Positions 17,114-37,903 of a DNA stretch of 64,000 nt are shown piece by piece. The stretch lies in contig SUST01000004.1 of assembly GCA_015063285.1 (NCBI GenBank), forward strand, positions 78,561 to 142,560. Reading direction: 5' to 3'. The stretch's first letter is position 1. Each line of letters opens with the position of its first letter. A program made the translations under genes and the position numbers. Source of the DNA: Thermoplasmata archaeon. GTDB taxonomy: Archaea; Thermoplasmatota; Thermoplasmata; Methanomassiliicoccales; Methanomethylophilaceae. The notes beneath the pieces were generated by a model, which searched no databases, was not told the origin of the DNA, and saw only the letters and a list, made by a program, of their open reading frames with translations.

Positions 17114-19408
17114 TCACGGTTGTGAGTTCAATATCGCTTTCACGATATTGTTTGCTTCGTCTACGGTATAGTTGGGATCATCGATCCTTAGGCATATGTC
17201 GACGTAGCATCCGTCCTTCATTCCTACGTAGTAGATCATCCATGCCATAAACGCACCGTCTCTGTGACGGTCAGACAGATATCCGTATGCTTCGTCAAAG
17301 CCTGCAATATCCATGACGTAACATTTCGTATCAGTGCCTTCGTATCCTGCCACCTTCTCTTCAAACGTCGATTTCTGAATTGCGAAGTTAGTGTATGCGT
17401 CTTTCTTTGAGCTGAAGTTGATATGACGGTCACCCGATCCGCTGTCTGCCGCCTTAATGCTGGCGAACTCCTCGTCAGCCCCAAGCAGCATTGTGTAAGG
17501 TGCGCCCGCATATTTGTCAAGCATAGAGGTGTTGACAGAATTCGCCCAGGCTTTTGCATCCACATCAGAGATGGGAGGATAGGCTGAATAGATCAGTTTC
17601 TCGATGTCATCCAGCGTCAAGTTCGGCCTTTTGACAATCTGGAGGTCGACAAGGCACTCATCGATGTATCCGACGTATTTCATGCTTCCAAGTACATATT
17701 GGGCATCGGGGTTGGAATTGACATAATAACCGAATCCTTCAGTGAGAGCATTGGAGAATGGAATTTCTTGGCAGATTCCTGTGGTTCTTGCCTCTGTACC
17801 GATTTTGGCCTCATATGTGGCTTTCAACTCGTTAAACTTGGCTATAGGATCCTTTTCCAGAGAGTATTTGATGAAGTATGTCTCACCATCAGATACAACT
17901 TTAGCCACCTGGGAGTTGTTATCCTCTGACAACTTGTACGGTGTGTAGGAATAATCAATCATCGGATCGGGGTTGGAATTGAGATCATCCTTCATCAGAT
18001 CCCAGAATCTTTCAGCCAGTCCGATGACATCGATGTCCGACTCTATATCGTCATCTCCGGACCCGCCTTTCGCATCCATGTAGTTCTGGTAGGTACAGAT
18101 TGTCGTCATGTCCTGAACTACGTTGAAGTCTTGGTCCGGAACAGTGCTGTTCAGATAGTTCAGATACTTGTCCACCATTGTTTGGAAGTAGTTATGTGCT
18201 TCACTCATGGAGACGATATCTGGGTAGAACATTGCTGCAACATACATTACCCTACACGGTGTGGGTATTGACAGATTCAGATAGAACATGTTCTCGAATT
18301 CGCTGGATTTCTTCAAAATGTCTATTCTGCTGTCTTCCCACAGTTTGATCGGGTCCACGTTGATACAGTCGCATGTACGACAATTCATGATGTAGTCGAT
18401 CTTATCGTTGTAGATCGTTATTGCCTCCACATCGTTCAATGGATTGGATCCATTTCCAGGTAGATTGGCCACATCGATTCCTCCTGCCTGAAGTCCCATC
18501 TTGGTATATTGGGAATCATGCTGGGAGATATATTTCCACATGCACAGTGCGATGAATTTGGTGCGTTCATCATCGCCGAGTTTCTCAAGTTTGTCATTCA
18601 AGTCTACTATGGCTTTACGACTGTCGTTGGCATAATTCAGTGCTTTCTTGGAGTAATCTGGGCCTAAGAGGAATCCCAGAAGCATGGTGGCATCAATTGA
18701 GTGCACAGGGTCCGTACATCTGATGTAGATGACAGGTATACCTGTGGTTTCGATGTCATCCTTGTAATCAGACAAAGCTGCATCGTTGTAGGCCAGAATT
18801 GCACCGATACCCTCTCCTTTCTTATAAAGTTCTGAATCAAGGTCCTTTATCGCTTCCCATTCGACCTGAGTTATCATCCTGGGGGATGTTCCCAGGCATC
18901 TGGTGAAACCGTTGTTGTCAGCCTTGTAGAATGTCACTCCGTACGAGTCTCTGTTGGCTATGTATCCGATGACTTTCTCATCACCATCGAACATGAATGT
19001 GAGCTGGAGCATATCGGGGTTGATAGTTATGACATTCTCCAGAGGATAGTTGACCTCGACGATGTTCGTTTTTCCGACATCATAGACATATTGGTCTATG
19101 AAACGCACCTTTGTTTTTTCACCGTTGATGAGCTTCTTTACAATTTCCGCATCCGTTGCGGTTATGGCTCCATCCCCGTCTGCGTCTGCAAATGGGTGCT
19201 CGGATACCTTCGTCCCGATCAGTTGGTTGATGAGATCCACATCTTTCTGGTCTATGGTGTAATCCTCGTTGGCGTTACCATAGACCGGAAGGTTGGTCAT
19301 TTTAAGATTCTCGTAATTGCTGCTGCCAGATCCCAGGAAAAGGATTGCACCGCCTGCAGCTATCGCTACGATTGCCACTACAGAGATTATGACTATGTTC
19401 TTCTGCAC
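17114..19408 (-). CDS. Dockerin-like/substrate-binding protein of an ABC importer (copy 1)
   Basis: 764 residues. An N-terminal membrane anchor (residues 4-26) is followed by two dockerin-like calcium loops (GNANEDYTIDQKDVDLINQL about 43-62; DADGDGAITATDAEIVKKLI about 74-93). Next, about 100-410, comes a class III periplasmic binding domain of BtuF/FepB type (PRMITQVEWEAIKDLD, GIPVIYIRCTDPVHSIDATM). About 460-600 and 630-762 are two copies of a module with a Tyr-Glu-x-Lys helix, a Gly-Tyr-Gly-Tyr-Tyr strand and YVGYIDECLVDL (YVGMKDGCYVDI in the second). The start is GTG with AGGTGA upstream. It lies 9 bases after copy 2. Ligand (siderophore, corrinoid or cobalt complex) is inferred from family and neighbours. 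Confidence 0.75.
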   Translation of the reverse strand: MQKNIVIISVVAIVAIAAGGAILFLGSGSSNYENLKMTNLPVYGNANEDYTIDQKDVDLINQLIGTKVSEHPFADADGDGAITATDAEIVKKLINGEKTKVRFIDQYVYDVGKTNIVEVNYPLENVITINPDMLQLTFMFDGDEKVIGYIANRDSYGVTFYKADNNGFTRCLGTSPRMITQVEWEAIKDLDSELYKKGEGIGAILAYNDAALSDYKDDIETTGIPVIYIRCTDPVHSIDATMLLGFLLGPDYSKKALNYANDSRKAIVDLNDKLEKLGDDERTKFIALCMWKYISQHDSQYTKMGLQAGGIDVANLPGNGSNPLNDVEAITIYNDKIDYIMNCRTCDCINVDPIKLWEDSRIDILKKSSEFENMFYLNLSIPTPCRVMYVAAMFYPDIVSMSEAHNYFQTMVDKYLNYLNSTVPDQDFNVVQDMTTICTYQNYMDAKGGSGDDDIESDIDVIGLAERFWDLMKDDLNSNPDPMIDYSYTPYKLSEDNNSQVAKVVSDGETYFIKYSLEKDPIAKFNELKATYEAKIGTEARTTGICQEIPFSNALTEGFGYYVNSNPDAQYVLGSMKYVGYIDECLVDLQIVKRPNLTLDDIEKLIYSAYPPISDVDAKAWANSVNTSMLDKYAGAPYTMLLGADEEFASIKAADSGSGDRHINFSSKKDAYTNFAIQKSTFEEKVAGYEGTDTKCYVMDIAGFDEAYGYLSDRHRDGAFMAWMIYYVGMKDGCYVDICLRIDDPNYTVDEANNIVKAILNSQP

Positions 19409-19417
19409 TCAATCACC

Positions 19418-21688
19418 TTAACTCACTGAAGATATTGCTTTAGCAATGGCGTTCACTATTTCGGTGGTGTTGGTATCATCGAATGCGGTGCTGTCGCTTC
19501 TCAGGTAGACTGTTGCGAAGCATCCGTCCTGATATCCGACGAATTTGAGCATCCAGAAGCCACCTTGTCTGACGGCTTGAGCATAGAATCCGTATCCATC
19601 TTCCAGGTTATTCTTCTCAACAGCCATTGCGATTCCGCCCATGTAGTCTTGACCGATCTTATCGATGTATTCTTGTTTGGCGGCCATATAGCCGATGAGG
19701 GCATCGGATCTGTTGTCAAAGGTGATGTAATAGTCTTTTCCATCGTCATTCTTGCTGCATTGGATTTTAGCGAATTCGGCTGTGCTGTCCTCTGTTATCG
19801 AGTAAGGCGAGAACTTCATGTTGTTGAGGAGGCTGAGATCGAATTTCTTGGCAATCTCCAAAGCAGACTTTTCGCCGTCAGTTCCCCACAGGGCATCAAC
19901 TATGTTCTCAAGATCATCATCGGTCAGAAGCGGTTTCTTACCGAGATGGATTTCAATCAGACATTCCTTGATGTATCCGACATAGAACATGGAACCGATA
20001 CTGTCCTCGTTCTCTGTGTTGACATAATAGCCGATTCCATCAGTAAGTCCGGTCGGCAGATCGATTTCGATGTATGTGCCTCCCATGGAGGACTGTTTAC
20101 CGATCTTATCCTCATATTCCGCTTTCTTTTTCTGGAATTCCGGTACAGGGTTCTTGTACAGTTTTACATCCAAGTAGTATTTGCCGGATGTGGGCAGGGC
20201 CTGTGCATGCTGGTCGTCACCGCTAGTAGTATACGGTACGCCCTGATAATCGGAAAGGTCCATCTCATTGAGGAAGTGTTTTACGACATTCAGAGAATTG
20301 ATGTCAGAGATGACCTTCTCTCCTGGATCGGGATCCTTGGAATCCTCGTAATCCTTGTAGGTGATGATAGTGAACATATCTTCTTTGATGTCAAAATCTC
20401 CATCACTAACTGTTTTGTCCAGATATGACATGTATCTGTCAACGGTATTCTGGAGATAGCTGTCCGCATCTGCTCTTGAGACTATATCTGGATAGAAAAT
20501 CGCAGCTGCATACATGACTCTGCACGGAACGGGCATGGACATGTTGATCCACACCATGTCTTTGAAGTGGGTGCTCATCTCCAGGAATCTCATATCAGTC
20601 AATTCCCATAAGTCGACAGGGTTTACCCACGCGCAATCCTGTGTTGAACAGTTGAGCATGCAATCGATCTTGTCATTGTACTTTGTGATAGCTTCAACAT
20701 CCTGCAGCTTCTGTGAGGATGTGCCTTCCAATCCGCTCTCTTCGATACCTCCTGCCTGGATACCCATGTTTGTGTACTGTGACTGGTTCTCGGCAACATA
20801 GATCTTCATGGTAAGCGAAATGAAGTGTTTTCTTTCGCTATCCGAGAGTTTGGATACTTTCTTCTGGACATTTGCTATAGTTGTACGGCAGTCATCGGAG
20901 AATGCCACGGCCTTCTTAGCATAATCGGGGCCCAGCAGGAATCCCAGAAGCTCTGCAGCCTCAATCGAGTAAACAGGGTCTGTGCATCTCAGGTAGATTA
21001 TCGGTATTCCTGCAGCTTCGATATCATCCTTGTACTCACCGAGGGCGGCATCGCTCATCACAATTATTGCGCCTATCTTGCTCCCTTTTTCTTGCAGTTC
21101 GACATCGAGGTTCTTTATCCCTTCCCAGTCGGCAGCTGCAATGAATCTGGCCGTGGATCCGACCTGTTTGCTGACACCGTTGTGGGTCGCTTTATAGAAT
21201 TCATTGGGGTAGTTGTCGATGTTGGCGACAAAACCTGCGACCTGGTCATCTGCGTCGATGAGCATGGTCATCAAAAGCATGTCTGCATTTTGGGTTACAA
21301 TATCCCTCAGGGGATAGTCCACCGTTACGTAATGGAAATTGGATTTGATCAGGTCGTACTGGTCTACAAAGGTGACTTCGGTTTTCTCCCCCTTGATCAG
21401 TTTCTCCACTATAGAGATATCTTCAGAATCAAGGATTCCATCTCTGTTGGCATCTGCGAAGGGATGTACCGAGATCGGAGTTTTTTCTGTGATCATCGAA
21501 TTGATCAGTTCTATATCTTGATCGTCAACGACATCGTCGTCGTTGGCATTCCCGAAAACGGGAAGGCTTCCTTTGACGATATCGCCTCCGCCGCCTGAAT
21601 TATTGCTGTTCAGGACAAAAATGGCTGCGCCAACGATCACTATTACCGCGACTAACGCGATTCCAATTGTTGTGACATTGGATTTCAT
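19418..21688 (-). CDS. Dockerin-like/substrate-binding protein of an ABC importer (copy 2)
   Basis: 756 residues, same architecture as its downstream neighbour: anchor (residues 7-27), dockerin-like loops (GNANDDDVVDDQDIELINSM; DANRDGILDSEDISIVEKLI), a BtuF/FepB-like binding domain (AAADWEGIKNLD, GIPIIYLRCTDPVYSIEAAE), then two C-terminal modules (EYEDKIGKQ with DGIGYYVNTEN and YVGYIKECLIEIHL; EYIDKIGQ with DGYGFYAQ and FVGYQDGCFATVYL). The two proteins are clear paralogues from a tandem duplication but have diverged a good deal. First gene of a two-gene minus-strand operon, divergent from the permease genes by 115 bases. A role in docking binding proteins to a surface partner is speculation. 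Confidence 0.75.
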   Translation of the reverse strand: MKSNVTTIGIALVAVIVIVGAAIFVLNSNNSGGGGDIVKGSLPVFGNANDDDVVDDQDIELINSMITEKTPISVHPFADANRDGILDSEDISIVEKLIKGEKTEVTFVDQYDLIKSNFHYVTVDYPLRDIVTQNADMLLMTMLIDADDQVAGFVANIDNYPNEFYKATHNGVSKQVGSTARFIAAADWEGIKNLDVELQEKGSKIGAIIVMSDAALGEYKDDIEAAGIPIIYLRCTDPVYSIEAAELLGFLLGPDYAKKAVAFSDDCRTTIANVQKKVSKLSDSERKHFISLTMKIYVAENQSQYTNMGIQAGGIEESGLEGTSSQKLQDVEAITKYNDKIDCMLNCSTQDCAWVNPVDLWELTDMRFLEMSTHFKDMVWINMSMPVPCRVMYAAAIFYPDIVSRADADSYLQNTVDRYMSYLDKTVSDGDFDIKEDMFTIITYKDYEDSKDPDPGEKVISDINSLNVVKHFLNEMDLSDYQGVPYTTSGDDQHAQALPTSGKYYLDVKLYKNPVPEFQKKKAEYEDKIGKQSSMGGTYIEIDLPTGLTDGIGYYVNTENEDSIGSMFYVGYIKECLIEIHLGKKPLLTDDDLENIVDALWGTDGEKSALEIAKKFDLSLLNNMKFSPYSITEDSTAEFAKIQCSKNDDGKDYYITFDNRSDALIGYMAAKQEYIDKIGQDYMGGIAMAVEKNNLEDGYGFYAQAVRQGGFWMLKFVGYQDGCFATVYLRSDSTAFDDTNTTEIVNAIAKAISSVS

Positions 21689-21803: not shown

Positions 21804-22886
21804 ATGGTCGAAGATATCAACGAAGCCAGGAAGGAAGAATATCGCTCTTCCATTTCAAGAAAAATCACGTTCTTGGTGGTATGTTTTGCTATACTGTTAG
21901 TAACGACTATTGTGTCATGTTCTGTCGGGACAGGTTATGAATTCGGAAAAACAGCGCAAGTAATTTGGGACCATATCACAGGCGTTACGTACCCCGTAAG
22001 GAGTCCAGACTGGTGGGCGGATTACTATATCTTCAACAATGTCATGCCCGGTGTAATAATGGCCCTCGTGGCCGGAGCGGGATTGGCCTTGGCCGGTACC
22101 GTCATGCAGAGTATGATGGAGAATCCTTTGGCCGATGCATACACGACCGGTATCTCTTCGGGAGCTTGTTTGGGTGCAGTCGTTGCAATCATTATGGGCT
22201 ATTCATACTCCACCATAGTTGCTGGTGCAGGAATAGTGATAAACGCTTTCATAGGGTCGCTGATTCCCGCCGTTATAATCATTCTGATGATCAGATATGT
22301 GGGCAATTCTCCCTCAACGATTATTTTGATAGGAACGGCGTTGACGTTCTTCTTCAATTCGATGGTCACTTTGATTATGATGACGTCGAGTGCAGAGAGT
22401 CTTCAGGATGCATACATATGGCAAGTGGGCAGCGTTACTAACGCTTCCTGGTCAGATATGCCTTTGATGATTGTGATGTGTATAGCCTCGGCAGTACTCG
22501 TACAGATATCATCGAACAAGCTTAACATAATGGCATTGGGTGAGAAGAGCGCAAAGAGTCTGGGACTGGACGTTGTTCAGTTCAGGATGCTTTGCATTAT
22601 TCTGACATCTGTTTTGATCGCATCTATCATCTCGTTCACAGGAGTCATAGGTTTCATCGGTCTTGTCGCTCCTCATATCACACGTTTCCTGGTGGGAGGG
22701 GATAACAGATTCGTCGTTCCAGGATCGATAATAATGGGTTCGACGATTCTCGTGGTAGCCGATCTGATATCGCGCATGCTGATGACATTCGGCAACATCC
22801 CTCTGGGAGTCGTAATGTCTTTCATCGGAGCTCCCGTATTTCTGTACCTTATCATCAGGCGCAGATCTGAAAGGGAGGTATTCTGA
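21804..22886 (+). CDS. BtuC/FecCD-type ABC permease 1
   Basis: 360 residues, about ten membrane helices. Family motifs: GAGLALAGTVMQSMMENPLADAYTTGISSGA (about residues 92-122; the conserved Q-x-x-x-x-NPLA-P stretch) and GFIGLVAPHITRFLVGGDNR near the C-terminus, which contacts the ATPase. It forms the channel of an iron-siderophore, haem or cobalamin importer. Its stop overlaps the next start (TGATG), so the two permeases are made together, perhaps as a heterodimer. The start follows a TATA box and a palindromic operator. Divergent genes encode two binding proteins. Confidence 0.88.
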   Translation: MVEDINEARKEEYRSSISRKITFLVVCFAILLVTTIVSCSVGTGYEFGKTAQVIWDHITGVTYPVRSPDWWADYYIFNNVMPGVIMALVAGAGLALAGTVMQSMMENPLADAYTTGISSGACLGAVVAIIMGYSYSTIVAGAGIVINAFIGSLIPAVIIILMIRYVGNSPSTIILIGTALTFFFNSMVTLIMMTSSAESLQDAYIWQVGSVTNASWSDMPLMIVMCIASAVLVQISSNKLNIMALGEKSAKSLGLDVVQFRMLCIILTSVLIASIISFTGVIGFIGLVAPHITRFLVGGDNRFVVPGSIIMGSTILVVADLISRMLMTFGNIPLGVVMSFIGAPVFLYLIIRRRSEREVF

Positions 22887-23935
22887 TGGGAAAGGAGGAC
22901 TACAAGCGTGCAGTCCAAAAGAAATGGCTTTTCATTATCCTGTGCGCGGTGGCTACGTTGGTGGCCTTGGTGTTCTCACTCTCAATAGGTCTTTACGACA
23001 TCAGTTTCGCAGATTGCTATAGGGTGCTGATAGAGCATTTAACGGGGAACATCACCAATCCCTATGAGGACGATATCGTCATCAATACCAGGCTCCCGAT
23101 TTCGGTATTTGCGGTCATTGTAGGCGCTGTGCTTGCCTTGGGCGGAGCTGTGATGCAGTCTATGCTCAGGAATCCTCTTGCCGACCCTTATACGATGGGA
23201 GTATCGTCCGGAGCTTTGCTGGGCGCATCTCTTGCCATCATCCTTGGAGAATCAATTATGCCGTTCTTCAGCGATAAATGGGTGACCATTGTTATGGCAT
23301 TCCTATTCTCGCTGATACCGGTCACAGTCATTTTGATGGTTTCGACAAAACGTAAGGTTACTGCGACCAAAGTGATACTTATCGGAATAGCGATGATGTA
23401 CATCTTTTCAGCCATCGTCCAGCTCATAATGATTACCTCTTCAGAAGAGACTCTGGCCGAGATCTATTCCTGGAGGGTAGGTACCCTAACTCTGACGGAA
23501 TGGGATACAATCCCCATCCCTCTCGCAATCAGTCTCGTTTGCGGGATCATAATCATGTATCATTACAGACGCATCAACGTCATGATGGCTGGAGCAAATT
23601 CGGCACACTCTATGGGTGTGGATCCTAACAGGACTCTGCTGGTCGAGACAACACTGGTTTCGCTGATGACAGCAGCAGTCGTCAGTTTCACAGGTACGAT
23701 CGGATTCGTAGGACTTGTGGGACCTCACATCGCTAGGCTTTTCGTGGGATCCGAATCAAAACATCTTCTTCCCGCTTCCGCAGTTTTCGGAGGATTGTTC
23801 CTTCTGTTGGCCAATTGCATCGCCAGGGTTTCAGGAGAATACGGTCTGCCCGTGGGAGTGGTCAGTGCGGTCATAGGTTGTCCGCTTTTCATATTCATAC
23901 TGGTCAAGATGCGCAGGAAGAGCGCGTGGAATTGA
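22886..23935 (+). CDS. BtuC/FecCD-type ABC permease 2
   Basis: 349 residues, about ten membrane helices. It carries GAVLALGGAVMQSMLRNPLADPYTMGVSSGA and GFVGLVGPHIARLFVGSESKHLLP, both highly typical of the FecCD family. Similar to permease 1 but clearly distinct. Because only one ATPase gene follows, the likely complex is a permease heterodimer with an ATPase homodimer, as in FhuB-like or FecCD systems; two separate homodimeric importers sharing one ATPase are also possible. Nothing looks truncated. Confidence 0.88.
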   Translation: MGKEDYKRAVQKKWLFIILCAVATLVALVFSLSIGLYDISFADCYRVLIEHLTGNITNPYEDDIVINTRLPISVFAVIVGAVLALGGAVMQSMLRNPLADPYTMGVSSGALLGASLAIILGESIMPFFSDKWVTIVMAFLFSLIPVTVILMVSTKRKVTATKVILIGIAMMYIFSAIVQLIMITSSEETLAEIYSWRVGTLTLTEWDTIPIPLAISLVCGIIIMYHYRRINVMMAGANSAHSMGVDPNRTLLVETTLVSLMTAAVVSFTGTIGFVGLVGPHIARLFVGSESKHLLPASAVFGGLFLLLANCIARVSGEYGLPVGVVSAVIGCPLFIFILVKMRRKSAWN

Positions 23936-23944
23936 GGTGTTAGA

Positions 23945-24769
23945 ATGAGGTTAATTATCGACGGAATTGAATTCGGATACTCCAGTGTCCCTGTCCTCAA
24001 GGATATCACATTGGATGCTAACGGGCCCCAGCTATTATCCATAATCGGGCCCAACGGAGTCGGTAAATCTACTTTGATACACTGCATCAACAGGATTCTT
24101 TCTCCAAACAAAGGAACCGTTATGATTGACGGGGACAATGTAAATGATGTTTCATTGAAGGACCTGGCTAAAAAAGTAGGTTATGTTCCTTATTCCGCTA
24201 ATGATACTTTCCCATTGTCTGTCGTCGATACGGTCTTAATGGGTCGTCACCCTCACGCTACGTACAAGTCTCTTGATAAGGATCTAGACATAGTTTATGA
24301 TACGCTCAGACTTCTGGATATTGAAGATCTGGCCATGAGGAATTTCAATGAACTGTCGGCAGGACAGCATCAGAAGGTCATGCTTGCCAGAGGTCTTGTT
24401 CAGGAGCCTGAGATCCTGCTTCTGGACGAACCCACTTCCAATCTCGATATAAAGCATCAGATGGAGGTAACTCGTATACTGAGAGGTCTTTCTCAGGAGA
24501 AGGACATCCTAGTGATCATGATAAGTCACGACCTGAACATAGCTGCGAAGTATTCAGACACGATGATCATGCTCCACGGCGGTTCGATTTATGCCATCGG
24601 AACCCCCAGCCAGGTTATCACCAAGGAGAACATCAAAGCGGTCTACGATGTCGATTCAGAAGTGATCGAGAGCCACGGCAGGCCTCATTTGATCATGCTC
24701 GATGATGATTTCGATAATACGGAGCATAGTTTGCCCTCGGACACTTATGCCGTCAATGAGATGAGGTAA
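23945..24769 (+). CDS. ABC transporter ATPase, BtuD/FecE type
   Basis: 274 residues. Walker A is GPNGVGKSTL (about residues 36-45), the Q-loop region follows at YVPYSANDTFPLSV, the signature is LSAGQHQKVMLARGL, Walker B is ILLLDEPTSNLD, and the switch histidine is in MISHDLN. It powers the two permeases encoded just upstream. The signature reads SAGQ where most have SGGE or SGGQ, a tolerated variant. A GAGGTG ribosome site lies 5 bases before the ATG. The C-terminal 35 residues (after VIESHGRPHLIML) form an acidic tail. Third gene of the operon. Confidence 0.92.
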   Translation: MRLIIDGIEFGYSSVPVLKDITLDANGPQLLSIIGPNGVGKSTLIHCINRILSPNKGTVMIDGDNVNDVSLKDLAKKVGYVPYSANDTFPLSVVDTVLMGRHPHATYKSLDKDLDIVYDTLRLLDIEDLAMRNFNELSAGQHQKVMLARGLVQEPEILLLDEPTSNLDIKHQMEVTRILRGLSQEKDILVIMISHDLNIAAKYSDTMIMLHGGSIYAIGTPSQVITKENIKAVYDVDSEVIESHGRPHLIMLDDDFDNTEHSLPSDTYAVNEMR

Positions 24770-26289: not shown

Positions 26290-29200
26290 TTACTGATTCC
26301 TATCTGTAACTTCCTCTATTCTCTCTTCAACATCGAGGTAAAGGTCCTTCAATTTCTGTCTATAATCGTCTTTTGCATCCCACAATCCGCGTTCTATGGC
26401 CTCTTCCAAACGGTTGAGGATGTTCATCATCGCATACGGGTTGACATCCATCATCCATTCCTGCGTGCTCTTGTCGAAGAGATACTTATCCGCAATGCCC
26501 TCGTACATCCAGTCTTCGCCTATGTCCGATGTGGCATCCCAAGCCATGGTGAATTCCGTGAGGTTCGCCATCTCGCCGGCGCCGCGGTATCCGTGCTCCT
26601 TTAGTCCGTCGATGAATTTGGGATTCAGGATCTTGCTCCTGAACACGTAACGCAGTTCCTGCTGAGTGTCCCTGAGCTTGGACCTCTTGGGGTCCGAATC
26701 GTCGCCCATGAACGACATGAAATCCTTGTTCTTGCCATAGGCCCTCACGAATGCGTTCATGCCTCCGAGATATTCGTAGACATCGTCGCAGTCCAGAAGG
26801 TCAATCTCCCTGTCAGGCATGTTCTTGACAGTGATGGACACGCTGCTGAAGCGTCTCATGAACTCATCTTTGAGCTTTTCCCCGTAGTGGCCTTGGGAAT
26901 AACCGTTGCTGCACCAATCAAGATACACGTTCGCAAGGTCCTGGACGCTATCCCAAGTGCTGTTCTCAATCGCCATGTTAACTCCGGTACCGTATCCTCC
27001 GGGAGGGGCACCGAATATCCTTACCGCGTTGCGCCTGCGAGCCTCATCTGGAGACAGTCCGGATAATATGCCCTCGACCACATCCTTCCTCAGATTGGCG
27101 GCCAAGGCATTGTCCTCATCCTTCTCGTCCAGACCGGCCACCAGATTCACCGCCCTGTCGATGAGATCGATGAGGTTCGGGAAGGTGTCCCTGAACAATC
27201 CCGTAATGCTCACGGATACGTCCAGTCTAGGTCTTCCAAGCTCCGAAAGGGGAACTACTTCCAAGTCCACCACCTGTCCGCCTGTGCGTGCCCATATGGG
27301 CTTTACTCCCAGTAGCTACAGGATATAGGCGACGTCATCCCCTCCGGTTTTCATTATGTCCGTCGCCCAGATGACCATACCGATCTCTCTGGGGTATTCC
27401 CCTTTCTGATCCACATAGCGCTGGACCATCTGGTCCGCCATACGTTTACCTATCTCCCAAGCGGTGCGGGTAGGGACTATGTCCGGATCCAGCGAGAAGA
27501 AATTCCTTCCCATCGGAAGGATACCTGCGCTTCCGCGTGTAGGTGCACCGGAAGGTCCGGGCACGATATGCTCCCCTCTGAGGCCGTCGGCCATATGCGA
27601 GATCTCATCAGTCATCCTCTTGATGTTGGGTACAAGCGTTCCGCAGGCGTATTCCAAGCTCCTTTTCAGTTCATCGGTCGCTTTCCCGATGTGCGATAAC
27701 GTGCGCTCGAGGTCGTATCCGTCCTCCCGCATCCATTCTAGGAGGTCCATGAGCTCCCCGTCGATCCTATCGACGGCAACGGAGTTGAACTCTCCCGTAG
27801 AACATACGCCAGCAGGATCCTCCAGGGCCTTCTACATATCGACTCCCTGATTCTCTGCGAAGGCATCCCTGAGGGATCTGATGTCTCCGTTGTCTAGGCG
27901 CATCAATGAATAGAGTGCCTCGTCGAAATGGTGCCCTTCGGGTACCTTTCCGAGGATGTGGAGGTCTGATCTGATCAGTGCATCCTTCACCTCCGATATG
28001 TATTCGTGAAGCGGGATAATGTATTCCTCGAAACCTTCTGGACCGGGGTCGTTCTCATCTGTTATCCCGATGTCCTTCAGAAGATTGTTCCTCTTCGCTG
28101 TCTCGTACACATTGGCGACTGCCTGCGCCTTCCTCTGGGCGTTCGGGGTGCCCTTCAGCCTCAGCAGGTCCTGCAGTTGGACGTTTACCTCGTCTAGCTC
28201 GGGATAGGAATCCGCACGGGCCATCGTAGGAGGCATATGGCCGATCAGTACGGATTCGATCCTGCGCTTGCACTGTATTCCCTCTCCGGGGTCGTCTATA
28301 ATGTAGGGGTAGATGTTAGGGATGCAGTCCAGAACAACGTCCGGATCGCATTTTGCAGATAATCCGACGTTCTTCCCGGGGAGCCATTCGATGGTCCCGT
28401 GTGTCCCCATATGGAAGATTATGTCGGTCCTGAACGTCTCCTTCAGCCAACGGTAGTATGCAAGATACTGGTGCTGTGCGAACAGGATTGGGTCGTGGAT
28501 GTTCTGCTCCATCTTGTCGGCCCATCCTCTGAGCGGCTGGTATCCCACGAACACGTTGCCTTTGATGATACCTGGGACGATGATGTCATGTCTGTCGACG
28601 CATATCGATCCCGGGGGCTCTCCCCAGGCATCGATCATCTCCTTCTGATCCCATTCAGGGATGCGTATGAACTGACCTTTGTATTCCTTGTCCGGTATCA
28701 GGTCCACGGCCTTCTCTCTGAGAGCTTGTGATGACAGGTTGTCTAGATCGTTCGTGACTCCGTTCAGTATCTCATCGATCAGAGCCCTTCCGTCCGCAGG
28801 TACGTTATCGACGGTGTATCCCTCGGCCTCCAAGGTCTTCAGGATGTTAGCGACACTCTCCGGGGTGTCGAGTCCCGCGGCCCCGCCTATGTTCCCGGAA
28901 TCGGGGCGGTTCTGCCACATGAGGATGGCGACCCTCCTTTCGGATACGGGTTTGGAATGGAGGGCGCCCCAGTTCTTGGCCAATTTCACAAGATGACCGA
29001 TCCTCTCCGGTATCGGATGGTAGCGGGCGGTTCCGTCAGTTTTGGACTTGTAGGCTACCGGTACGCTGACGATGCACCCTTCCAGCTCAGGATAGATGAC
29101 GTTCATCTGCATGTCCTTTTTGGATAGACCGATCTTATCGTCCTCGAAGTCGTGATATGCCCCTTGGACGGAGATTCCGAACACAAGGGGAACGTTCAGC

Positions 29201-30033
29201 TCGTTGCGGTAGAAGTTCCATTCGTCGAGACATCTGTCGTGCCCATGTCCGTCTATGGCCAATCTTGAAACAGATATTATGCATGATACCAACGGTTTTC
29301 CGTTCTCGGTCATGTAGTTGCGCAGAACGGAATCCACCTCATTCGTCAGATCCTTGTTGAAACTGGAGCAGAATATGGGGATGACGTTCATGCCCTGTCT
29401 CTCGATCTCGTCAGTTATGGCGTCGATATGCTCCGTGGTGCCGTATATCCAATTGTTAGTGGGGAATACGAGGCCTAACGTCATCTTCTTTGGATCCAGA
29501 GTCTTGAGATAATCCTCTTTGGAGATTTCCGTATCCATGCCGCGATGGTAGATCCCATGAGGTCTGTGGACGATCGGAGGATCAGGGAATCTATCGCAGA
29601 ATCCAAGCCTGTACATGGCCCACCATATGATCCCTCTGTCATTTTCGGGACATCTGTCCTTCACATAGGAATACAGTTCACGATATTCCTCGTCCGTTCC
29701 TTTGAATAGAGGTCTGGCCAGAAGATTCATCTCCGGATTTCCGGAGAATACTGCAGGGAACCCCTTCACATTCTTCAGAACATCCTCGTAGCGGTCCCAT
29801 TTCTTGAAACGATAGAGGTCCCCCATCCCTCTGACGTAGATGAAATCGGCCTGTTGTGTGCGCTGAATGAGGTCATGGTAGACCAGAACATCCTCGTCGG
29901 CATCATCGGCGTAGATCCCGTAGAATTCCACATCCAAACCCAGGTCCTCTCCGAGCTTCTCGGCGGTGCTCTGGAGCTGATCGGGCTCGTTCTCCAGAAT
30001 GGAGATGAATACCATGCGGAATACCCTGGGCAT
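26290..30033 (-). CDS. cobN: CobN-type metal chelatase subunit with two in-frame TAG codons
   Basis: One continuous frame of 1247 codons interrupted only by TAG at codons 734 (27832-27834) and 906 (27316-27318). No frameshift is present, and CobN family sequence continues through both: upstream LGLVFPTNNW, FHMGTHGTIEWLPGKNVGLS and IGHMPPT; downstream LLGVKPIWARTGG, LGRPRLDVSVSITGLFRDTFPNLI and GAPPGGYGTGVN. Total length equals normal CobN. At codon 906 related proteins usually have Tyr (LYLLGVRP-like). Pyrrolysine insertion is the simplest explanation in this order. CobN is the large subunit of cobaltochelatase; archaeal members beside FecCD-type importers may act in corrinoid or other metal handling. 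TATA (30056-30063) implies a leaderless mRNA. Pairs with the flavodoxin gene. Confidence 0.88.
27316..27318 (-). other. In-frame TAG, second in cobN
   Basis: Lies between AYIL and LLGVKPIW, a position normally held by Tyr. The next stop in frame is the natural TAA at 26290. Read as pyrrolysine by inference. Confidence 0.75.
27832..27834 (-). other. In-frame TAG, first in cobN
   Basis: Lies between NQGVDM and KALEDPAG. The frame then runs open for 171 codons to the second TAG. Read as pyrrolysine by inference. Confidence 0.75.
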
Positions 30034-34096: not shown

Positions 34097-34187
34097 CGAT
34101 AGATTCAACCATTTGCGGAAATCATTTTAATGCTTAATCGATACGACTTTCTGTAGAGGAACGAAGAATCACCCTGGAGGATTGTTT

Positions 34188-35861
34188 TTGGACGATTTGT
34201 TGATCGCGACAGCAGTACTGACCTTGCTCGCCGGAGTGGGCGTCTTCCTCACCGCATGCATAATGCTCAGTTCCAATCTAGAGTCCCTTAGCAGCGGCAA
34301 ACTCAAGAAGATGTTCGCGAAGGCATCTAAGAGCAAACTTTACGGTGTCGGTATCGGTACAGTAGGTACCGCGGCGATCCAGAGTTCCGGAGCGATGACC
34401 GTCATGGTCATCGGATTCGTCAATGCGGGAATCATGACATTACCGCTGGCGGCCACCATCATATACGGTGCCAACATCGGTACCACCATAACCGCTCAGA
34501 TAGCCGCAATTGGAATGTTCAATGACGACACATTATCCCTTTCTGTCATCTTCGCCGCTCTGGCAGGTATCGGGGCGTTCGTCATGGCATTCTCCAAAAA
34601 AGAGAAAACCAAGGTTTGGGGCGGTGTTATAGCAGGTTTCGGTCTTCTCTTCGTCGGTTTGATGATGATGGCCACATCCATGGAAGACTTCGCCAAACTC
34701 CCTGAGGTCGTAGAATTCCTTTCCAGCATCCACAACATCTTCCTCGTTCTTCTGATCGGTATCCTTTTGACAGCCTTGGTCCAGAGTTCATCGGTCGTGA
34801 CCACTCTGGCGATCACAATGGTCGTTAGCGGATTGATTGATCTCGAACAGGGTATTTATCTGACCCTGGGTTCAAACATCGGTTCATGTATAGTTGCTAT
34901 CCTGGCAGGATTCTCGGGCGGAAGGAATGCCAAGCGTACCGCGGTTATCCATCTATTGTTCAACGTGTTCGGAGTGACACTATTCGTAGTAGCCGACATG
35001 TTCTTAGGAATATTCGGTATAGAATATGCAGAGATATTCCAGACCATATTCCCCGATGTGCCTTCAACGCAGCTCGCGATGTTCCATACCGTGTTCAACG
35101 TCATCACTGTGATCATAATGCTCCCGCTGACCGGATTGCTCATCAAACTGGTCATGAAGATCGTTCCCGAGAAGGAAGGGGAGAAGGAAGAGGAGTTCAA
35201 ACCCAGGCTCTACTTCATCAACGAGTATATGCTCAGAACGCCCCCCATGGCCGTTCAGCAGGTAATGAAGGAGGTAGTGAACATGTCGCATATTGCCATG
35301 GACAACTACCGTACGGCATGCCACATGATACGTACCATGGACTTCGAGGAAATGGACAAATTCTGCAATAACGAATAGGAGCTGAATTATCTGAACAAGG
35401 AGATCGCCAGATTCCTGGTCAAGCTGTCGGAAAACCAGCTTTCAGAGAGGGATCAGATCTATGTCTCCACAGTCTACCATACAATTTCTGATTTGGAGCG
35501 TATCGGGGATTATTCCAAGAATATAATGGAATATGCTCAGAAGCTCAAGGAACAAGGAAACACCTTCTCCGAGGTAGCCTTGAAGGAGACCATGGTCATG
35601 GAATCGCTGATCGAGCAGCTCTATGAGAAGATCGAGATCGCCTACACGGAGACCAACGAGGCCGCATTGGAGGCAGCATATGATATCGAAGAGAACATCG
35701 ACATCATCACTGAATCCATGGCGGAGAACCATGTAAAGAGGCTCAATGAGGGCGTCTGCACATTGGATGTCGGTTCCGAATTCCTCGCAATGACGTCGGA
35801 TTCCGAGAGGGTAGCCGACCATCTTATCAACATGGGAAAGGTCATCAGGCTGTATTCCTGA
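34188..35861 (+). CDS. Na/Pi cotransporter with PhoU-like tail and one in-frame TAG
   Basis: 557 codons with TAG at codon 397 (35376-35378) and no frameshift. The N-terminal 330 residues are NptA/NPT2-type repeats: GVGIGTVGTAAIQSSGAMTVMVIGF and ALVQSSSVVTTLAITMV carry the paired Q-S-S motifs. The C-terminal 200 are PhoU-like helices, and this domain spans the TAG: METAC-like helix before it, and NKEIARFLVKLSENQLSERD then DLERIGDYSKNIMEYAQKL after it. Translation ending at the TAG would remove most of the PhoU part. Start is TTG at 34188, 7 bases after GGAGG; the TTG at 34182 is too close. Imports phosphate with sodium, or regulates by PhoU. Confidence 0.87.
35376..35378 (+). other. In-frame TAG in Na/Pi cotransporter gene
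   Basis: Lies between DKFCNNE and ELNYLNKEIARF. The frame stays open for 160 codons more and keeps PhoU-type sequence to a TGA at 35859. Read as pyrrolysine by inference. Confidence 0.75.
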
Positions 35862-36231: not shown

Positions 36232-37062
36232 TCACGCCAGGAAGCTGAAGTAGATGGCGCTTAGGATGAATGCGAGCAGTCCGAAGAGCATACCGATCTT
36301 CGCTTTCTTCTCTGCCGCATGAGGGTCCTTGAATACGATGTATGCACAGTAGAAGAATGCTACATCTGCCAGGATCACAGAGTAGTAGAGATAGTTCTCC
36401 GGATGGAGATAGATCGGATACCAGCTGAGGATAGGGCCCGCAATGTAGAAGATCGAAGCGACGATGGATGCATTCTTCACACCGATCGCCATGGGAAGCG
36501 TCCTTCTGCCTATATCCGAATCCATATCCTCGATATCCTTCGAGATCTCCCTTCCTACTGTCACGAGTGCCGCCATACCGCCGACGGCGATGTTGGCCGT
36601 CCAGTCGCCCACAAGAGCTCCTGCCAGAAGGAAGACCATACCGGTCATCAGGGCTATCGTTATGTTTCCGATGAATCCGCGCTTCTTGGTCAGCAGTTCA
36701 TATGAGAACATCAGGATGACTGCGATGATGACTATCGCGATGCAGGAAACATCCATTGTGATAAGGGACAGCAGCGCCGAAAGCACCAGCATGAAGATCC
36801 CTATGTTTCTGGCCTGTATCGCGGTCAGTTCCCCTGAAGGTACAGGCCTGTCAGGATGTGCCGTTCTGTCGATCTCGACATCGATGTAATCGTTCAGGGA
36901 ATTGCCTCCGGCGATGAACGCGAATACCACGAAGAAACCGACTATGAGGTTCTGCCAATAGTCGATCATAGCGGTACCGGTAGCCATGAATGCAGCGATC
37001 AGAATGGCAAAGGAGCCGATAAGGACATTGCCCATCCTGAACAGCCGGAGGTACTTGTTCAT
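36232..37062 (-). CDS. Digeranylgeranylglyceryl phosphate synthase, UbiA family
   Basis: 276 residues, about eight membrane helices. The two Asp-rich sites are GNSLNDYIDVEIDRTAHPDR (about 44-63) and REISKDIEDMDSDIGRRTLP, the arrangement of archaeal geranylgeranylglyceryl phosphate geranylgeranyltransferase, the second ether-bond step of membrane lipid synthesis. The start ATG at 37062 has GGAG nine bases upstream. The frame reaches 37209 but that part has no family match and would run into the divergent gene's promoter. Downstream is a MazF-like gene; upstream and divergent are other isoprenoid lipid genes. Confidence 0.88.
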   Translation of the reverse strand: MNKYLRLFRMGNVLIGSFAILIAAFMATGTAMIDYWQNLIVGFFVVFAFIAGGNSLNDYIDVEIDRTAHPDRPVPSGELTAIQARNIGIFMLVLSALLSLITMDVSCIAIVIIAVILMFSYELLTKKRGFIGNITIALMTGMVFLLAGALVGDWTANIAVGGMAALVTVGREISKDIEDMDSDIGRRTLPMAIGVKNASIVASIFYIAGPILSWYPIYLHPENYLYYSVILADVAFFYCAYIVFKDPHAAEKKAKIGMLFGLLAFILSAIYFSFLA

Positions 37063-37174
37063 GCATCTCCATCGCAGAAGTGATATAATTCCATTTGTCG
37101 GGAACAGGTCGCTCATGTCGAACATATCTTTATCTCTAACTTGAGTATATCTAAGAGTATCAGGTGTGTGGCAC

Positions 37175-37903
37175 ATGGGGATGGAAGACATATTCCAGAT
37201 GACGACCAACGACGTTATTGCCCTGGTGCTGGTCTACGCCCTGATCATCGTGGTTCTCGCCGTCGCACTCATAACACAGAAGAAGACCGGCGACAAGTAT
37301 GACATCCGCAAGATAATCCACATCGGCATTGGAAACTTCGTATTCATATGGTGGATGTTCGAGAACGCTTGGGTTATGGAAGCTTTTTTCGCGATACCGT
37401 TCGCCATAATTCTGTTCCTGGCGATGCTGAAGGATAACGTTATCGCGAAATCGACTTTAGGGGACATCTCAAAGAACAAGGGGCATAAGCAGGGCCTCTT
37501 CCTGTATGTGGTCAGCATCGTTATCTTGGTCGCCCTCTGTTTCAACGAGCACTGGACTGCCGCTTCCATAGGTATTGTCGCAATGACCTGGGGAGACGGT
37601 TTCGGAAGCATCATCGGTAAGAGGTTCGGTAAGCATCACATAATCAAAGGAAAATCCGTCGAAGGTACTTTGGGTGTGTTCGCAGCCACCGTGATTGTGT
37701 CTCTCATCCTGGTGGTGTTCCTGGGATCGGTCACCCTTCCAGATCCAACTGGGATCAAACTCACTGCCAGTATACCTATTTGGGCGTGCTGTGTGATAGC
37801 CGGTGCGACAGTCTCTGTCACGGAGATGGTAACGCCCGGATGGATTGACAATATAGTGAACTGTATGGCCGTCACAGGCGTCATGATTCTCCTGGGGCTC
37901 TGA
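37175..37903 (+). CDS. Dolichol/phytol kinase-like CTP-transferase family protein
   Basis: 242 residues and about seven membrane helices. Family (SEC59/DGK1/VTE5) motifs: KYDIRKIIHIGIGNFVFIWW, TLGDISKNKGH and MTWGDGFGSIIGKRFGKH followed by IKGKSVEGTLGVF. Members phosphorylate polyprenols or dolichol with CTP, or diacylglycerol. Here it probably makes a polyprenyl or archaeal lipid phosphate. I chose ATG 37175 because a TATA-like AGTATATC (37145-37152) is about 27 bases before; a GTG at 37166 and an ATG at 37181 also fit. It leads a run with a dTMP-kinase-like gene and a PAP2 gene, divergent from the prenyltransferase. Confidence 0.8.
   Translation: MGMEDIFQMTTNDVIALVLVYALIIVVLAVALITQKKTGDKYDIRKIIHIGIGNFVFIWWMFENAWVMEAFFAIPFAIILFLAMLKDNVIAKSTLGDISKNKGHKQGLFLYVVSIVILVALCFNEHWTAASIGIVAMTWGDGFGSIIGKRFGKHHIIKGKSVEGTLGVFAATVIVSLILVVFLGSVTLPDPTGIKLTASIPIWACCVIAGATVSVTEMVTPGWIDNIVNCMAVTGVMILLGL

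Follow-up and report, generated by a model that had tools for sequence, protein, structure and literature searches.

A CobN/ChlH-family chelatase gene of 1,247 codons, closed by TAA and reading through two in-frame TAG codons, lies on the reverse strand of the window (26290-30033), the 64,000-nucleotide stretch of a Methanomethylophilaceae genome analyzed here, and it is most likely a single gene in which both TAGs are read as pyrrolysine. From 30033 down to 26290, the frame consists of 733 codons, a TAG at codon 734 (27832-27834, reverse strand), 171 codons, a second TAG at codon 906 (27316-27318, reverse strand), 341 codons and the terminal TAA (26290-26292, reverse strand). Over all 1,247 codons there is no frameshift and no stop beyond the two TAGs and the final TAA, in agreement with a sequence-only reading of this DNA that had placed the three parts in one frame, joined only by TAG. 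The pyrrolysine assignment is based on the presence of pylB, pylC, pylD and part of pylS in the genome, together with the scarcity of TAG stops in a 276-kb sample of it.

When TAG is translated as lysine, the chelatase model PF02514 covers residues 122-1223 without a break (1142 bits), and the CobN model TIGR02257 scores 876.7 bits against a cut-off of 822.05. Because the first match forms one stretch and the second exceeds its cut-off, homology crosses both TAG sites, as the sequence-only reading had proposed. The closest neighbors in the PDB are the CobN chains 7c6o (620 bits, residues 185-1234) and 9uk9, followed by ChlH and the heme dechelatase HmuS, and long homology is shared with these class I chelatases (7c6o, 9uk9, 4zhj, 9d26). 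By its family-model matches the predicted protein is a full-length member of the CobN/ChlH/HmuS superfamily, with a putative cobaltochelatase role. How archaea use such chelatase proteins has been described as unclear (HmuS paper, PMC12583661, in its available text).

It is scarcely credible that the region holds three genes in their own right, or a chelatase that is split by nature. Start codons do occur downstream of each TAG (ATG at 27750, GTG at 27273), but they lie 27 and 14 codons into conserved sequence, which would be lost, and the family model spans all three pieces in one stretch. Moreover, among the loci examined, 36 of the 37 full-length relatives with at least 50% identity are free of in-frame stops; the exception, L029, has a single TAG at a place other than 734 or 906. 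Two partial matches (L012_2 and L015_2; 26-28% identity) were left out of this comparison. The ortholog in genome G064 is intact and 79% identical. The single frame, the full-length family match and this intact ortholog with the same neighbors together indicate that 26290-30033 is one predicted chelatase gene and not three, a point on which the earlier reading holds up.

The assembly to which the window belongs comprises 1.79 Mb in 33 contigs and is 96.7% complete. One contig, C13, starts inside PylS, of which the last 86 residues are present, and continues with pylB, pylC and pylD. PylB, PylC and PylD each score above their NCBIfam cut-offs; the PylS fragment scores 86 bits, below the family cut-off since it is partial, and at E 1e-20 only Methanosarcina acetivorans gave a match to PylS among 14 control genomes. 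The model for the PylS N-domain (TIGR03912) has no match in the genome; Methanomassiliicoccales are not known to carry this domain. A search for the tRNA gene, pylT, with tRNA-Pyl patterns and the G064 pylT DNA as queries, run without a positive control, recovered no such gene from the assembly; the expectation of a full set of pyl genes was borne out for pylBCD and the end of pylS but not for pylT. Nine weak tRNA-Pyl pattern matches were no more than those of a reversed control, and ARAGORN reported one tRNA-Ser only in those places. In other genomes, ARAGORN placed pylT near pylS in four of five loci (G064, G050, G067 and G055), and did so in 5 of another 20 pylS loci. Since the contig breaks inside pylS, the pylT of this genome would lie in the assembly gap next to it.

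The usage of TAG elsewhere in the genome is consistent with its decoding as pyrrolysine. Two MtmB genes and one MttB gene carry one TAG each. Stop codons were tallied for coding-scored open reading frames of at least 100 codons in a 276-kb sample made up of the window, 200 kb of C1 and 12 kb of C13, in which 223 frames end with TGA (197), TAA (22) or TAG (4). Three of the four TAG-ended frames correspond to the two CobN sites and to a site in a nearby Na/Pi cotransporter gene, and are followed by 160 to 513 more coding-like codons; the extension of the fourth is 18 codons only. Because the sample contains TAG and TAA trinucleotides in roughly equal numbers, one terminal TAG among 23 is improbable (1.6e-6), and TAG in this genome is best read as a sense codon. 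Sense TAGs nevertheless appear to be rare, since no other TAG-interrupted gene was found in 200 kb of C1. The chance of both stops in the CobN frame being TAG is 0.04-0.11, which is weak evidence alone; the strength of the argument therefore comes from the genome and family data. A separate in-frame TAG was seen in the window at codon 127 of a UbiA prenyltransferase frame (36232-37614, reverse strand), upstream of the domain (residues 206-442), where it probably reflects merely the place at which the gene starts.

The residues that occupy the two sites in relatives differ in their degree of conservation. Among the best 120 of 325 public proteins, with gapped rows excluded from the residue shares (3 at 734 and 5 at 906), position 734 is variable, with Gln commonest (Q 40, D 26, R 18, E 10, G 8, and others), while at position 906 Trp occupies 111 of 115 rows, the remainder being Tyr (2), Arg (1) and Lys (1). 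The claim that Tyr is usual at the second site must therefore be corrected to Trp. In the available structures, position 906 is Ala in both CobN chains (7c6o and 9uk9) and Trp in ChlH (4zhj), which suggests that substitutions at this residue are tolerated within the superfamily. In the nearest relative, P0001 (96.6% identity), position 734 is Leu and position 906 is Trp, for which reason both TAGs appear to have arisen recently. Aligned public proteins show amino acid residues at both sites, and TAG at 734 or 906 is absent from the 52 other aligned records among the loci examined, of which 2 and 3, respectively, are gapped there. The TAG is kept in orthologs in the case of MtmB, MtbB and MttB; such conservation was not found at the CobN sites. 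They have the look of missense changes that arose recently and are tolerated, and not of a catalytic role for pyrrolysine that has been conserved. The proposal of a pyrrolysine-containing chelatase subunit accordingly gains from pylBCD, part of pylS, the TAG-bearing MtmB and MttB genes and the scarcity of TAG stops, and loses from the lack of conservation of the sites.

The same lack of conservation is what would be seen if this CobN copy had recently lost its function and gathered two chance TAG nonsense changes while a second CobN-family gene continued to work. Both TAG sites occur in this lineage only, one replaces a nearly invariant Trp, and each seems to have come from the Gln, Leu or Trp of relatives by one base change, as judged from the genetic code. 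A second CobN-family gene without TAG is present in the same genome (C2:189438), so loss of the TAG-bearing copy could be tolerated. A separate scan of genome contigs yielded a single distant relative. We nevertheless regard a recent pseudogene as unlikely. No TAA, TGA or frameshift has entered the 1,247 codons, the known pyrrolysine genes of this genome carry TAG, and hardly any gene in the sample ends with TAG. Conservation is highest over the last 341 codons, even against the 96.6% identical relative: residue differences from P0001, leaving the TAGs aside, number 23 of 733, 11 of 171 and 7 of 341 in the three successive parts. Against the G064 ortholog, pN/pS in the same parts is 0.22, 0.24 and 0.11, with synonymous sites near saturation, and the pattern recurs in two uninterrupted pairs (0.28, 0.27 and 0.14, and 0.25, 0.24 and 0.16). 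The codons 3' of both TAGs are under constraint no weaker than that on the codons before them and show no decay, although the G064 test is silent on the time since the TAGs arose because these are too young.

If both TAGs are sense codons, pyrrolysyl-tRNA would compete with release factor for codons 734 and 906 on the ribosome, and termination at TAA would yield a full-length chelatase with two pyrrolysines; the pyrrolysine itself, the full-length product and the pylT gene are the inferred parts of this scheme. Each TAG would have come from its precursor (TGG at one site, CAG or else a codon for Leu at the other, as deduced here from the residues of relatives) by a single-base change, and because the cell would always decode TAG, each would be a missense change and not a stop.

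A regulated version of the same events can also be envisioned, in which decoding of TAG requires abundant pyrrolysine, as during growth on methylamines, a 733-residue fragment is made otherwise, and the amount of full-length chelatase tracks methylamine supply. Such control seems very improbable. Methylamine methanogenesis requires corrinoid proteins, and two serial TAGs would sharpen the dependence on pyrrolysine. Competition between pyrrolysyl-tRNA and release factor is, moreover, a proposed view (PMC9499178, in its available text). The sites, however, are not conserved and thus give no sign of selection for control; the scarcity of TAG stops suggests constant decoding, a position argued likewise in the available part of PMC4153887; and there is no unusual RNA fold just 3' of either TAG (z -1.09 and 0.42).

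The broader pattern of stops in CobN-family genes was surveyed across 102 genomes of Methanomethylophilaceae, with at most six candidates scored per genome and counts taken from the matches listed. CobN-family matches occur in 76 of these genomes. Among the 150 matches listed, nine genes are interrupted by TAG only (12 codons in all), one gene contains TAA and none contains TGA; one further TAG-bearing CobN-family gene was found in G036. In this listing it is TAG, not TGA, that interrupts CobN-family genes of the family. When shared columns are merged and kinship is otherwise ignored, the distinct in-frame stop sites among the matches listed amount to 10 TAG columns, 1 TAA and 0 TGA, and the chance of at least 10 TAGs among 11 sites is 1.3e-4 if the three stops are taken in equal thirds or 1.5e-6 from the local trinucleotide share. 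Stops elsewhere in the gene among related strains had been named beforehand as a sign against read-through; such stops do exist, but with a single exception they are TAG. That exception, the only genuine in-frame TAA among the matches listed (L066), belongs to G092, a genome without a pylS match, while a pylS match is present in eight of the nine genomes with a TAG-bearing CobN-family gene, the exception being G061, which is 82% complete. This contrast is weak by itself because 76 of the 102 genomes of the family have pylS.

Some of these TAG sites are shared. Query column 178 is TAG in the CobN paralogs L051, L052 and L053 (from G055, G054 and G017), which represent two genera and are 69% identical, and a second TAG stands at column 425 in the G055 and G054 paralogs. 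Apparent single TGA or TAA codons in many relatives were taken for terminal stops inside the aligned span, since the frames inspected are open and the same genes show none in the list of 150 matches; the alignments of two other such rows, G018:C99 and G023:C47, reach residue 1246. In L011, L031 and L057, TAGs that fall past the C-terminal limit of homology were left uncounted. Among the public proteins, P0011 and P0123, both recorded on a contig of length 76,548, represent an ortholog split by a stop at Trp 766/767 and are 99.9% and 99.6% identical to the intact P0012; as this stop need not be TAG, they were excluded from the TAG count.

A Na/Pi cotransporter gene with a C-terminal PhoU domain, 4 kb away (34182-35861, forward strand), is a stronger candidate for read-through than the CobN-type gene, as its in-frame TAG is conserved. 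The TAG is codon 399 (35376-35378, forward strand) and falls inside the PhoU domain (residues 366-451). In a search of 31 genomes of the genus, 20 gave an aligned ortholog; codon 399 is TAG in all nine orthologs with at least 77% identity, this gene included, and encodes Lys (8), Glu (2) or Arg (1) in the other 11 (53-62% identity). The codons after the TAG are under purifying selection, with pN/pS of 0.12-0.27 in seven comparisons. Among the best 120 of 7,711 public protein clusters, 49 end exactly at residue 398, and because they end at the TAG, the PhoU half is missing from those records; the type of stop is invisible in protein clusters but is TAG in the nine genomes. One other close cluster (76%) among the same 120 has Arg at 399, and the distant clusters have N (40), D (8), K (8), E (5) and others.

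Taken together with the CobN survey, these data point tentatively, and in our estimate with slightly less than an even chance of being right, to TAG as an ordinary pyrrolysine sense codon that drifts through large housekeeping genes of Methanomethylophilaceae, appearing in CobN at ten sites (one common to two genera) and in the Na/Pi-PhoU protein clade-wide, at a position that in relatives is polar (Lys, Asn or another such residue). If so, pyrrolysine would be needed for the handling of metal cofactors and phosphate, beyond methylamine methanogenesis.

In-frame TAGs outside the methyltransferases have precedents in related archaea. In Candidatus Methanomethylophilus alvus, 16 predicted pyrrolysine proteins beyond methyltransferases were described, TAG stops are very few (1.6%), and half of the candidate genes have TAG-less homologs in two other species; the change of a codon to TAG was argued to be missense, and incorporation of pyrrolysine was left to experiment (PMC4153887, in its available part). 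In strain ISO4-H5, 46 genes with an in-frame amber codon were reported, methyltransferases included (PMC5011839, in its available part). The present genome resembles both in bearing pyl genes and carrying in-frame TAGs in non-methyltransferase genes; it differs in that a single, very large protein has two of them and that TAG sites recur among CobN-family genes of Methanomethylophilaceae; neither CobN nor the Na/Pi transporter stands in the M. alvus table, as far as the available text goes (PMC4153887). The interest seen in two sites within one protein outside the methylamine methyltransferases has to be tempered by the TAGs already reported in the order (PMC4153887, PMC5011839).

A closer precedent is a TAG-containing CobN of Methanosarcina acetivorans, put forward in 2005 (PMC1242214) and judged in 2007 to be probably a pseudogene (PMC1914089), according to the available parts of those papers. 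Both cases involve a CobN-family gene with an in-frame TAG in a pyrrolysine-decoding archaeon. The M. acetivorans gene is said, in that partly available literature, to have an in-frame TAA too, whereas the present gene is interrupted by TAG only and appears to be constrained in sequence after both sites. In the main texts of the literature searched, supplements aside and as far as those texts were available, neither a CobN with pyrrolysine from Methanomassiliicoccales nor a Na/Pi transporter of this kind is named. The CobN-type gene would add one more case to a TAG habit already known in these archaea.

A 2025 paper in Science reportedly argues that in some archaea all TAG codons are decoded as pyrrolysine; the genes discussed here may already be listed in it. 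If the present interpretation is right, standard gene calling splits a CobN-type chelatase, as it does the Na/Pi transporter in its public clusters, and cells would rely on a supply of pyrrolysine to grow, not for methylamine use alone. The finding would also add to the case for TAG shifting from stop towards sense in these archaea. A large chelatase with two sites, one of them at a nearly fixed Trp, would offer a simple gauge of pyrrolysine tolerance by mass spectrometry.

The neighborhood of the CobN-type gene is largely shared with G064, where the same genes flank cobN on both sides, the flavodoxin-fold gene excepted. This gene (PF12682; 25660-26280, reverse strand) lies 9 bases downstream of the CobN-type gene on the same strand and has no match within a 20-kb region inspected at the G064 ortholog. 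The neighborhood also holds a putative ABC importer of the cobalamin/iron-complex type (21804-24769, forward strand), with permeases at 21804-22886 and 22886-23935 and an ATPase at 23945-24769 (all forward strand); its best family matches all fall below curated cut-offs, and its gene order is kept beside cobN in G064. As a guess, the importer and flavodoxin-fold neighbors may hint at tetrapyrrole import and metal exchange. Two large proteins of 764 and 756 amino acids are encoded beside the importer genes (17114-21688, reverse strand), the former with a dockerin domain (PF00404) and the latter with no Pfam match, and both are kept in order beside cobN in G064 with 51-55% identity.
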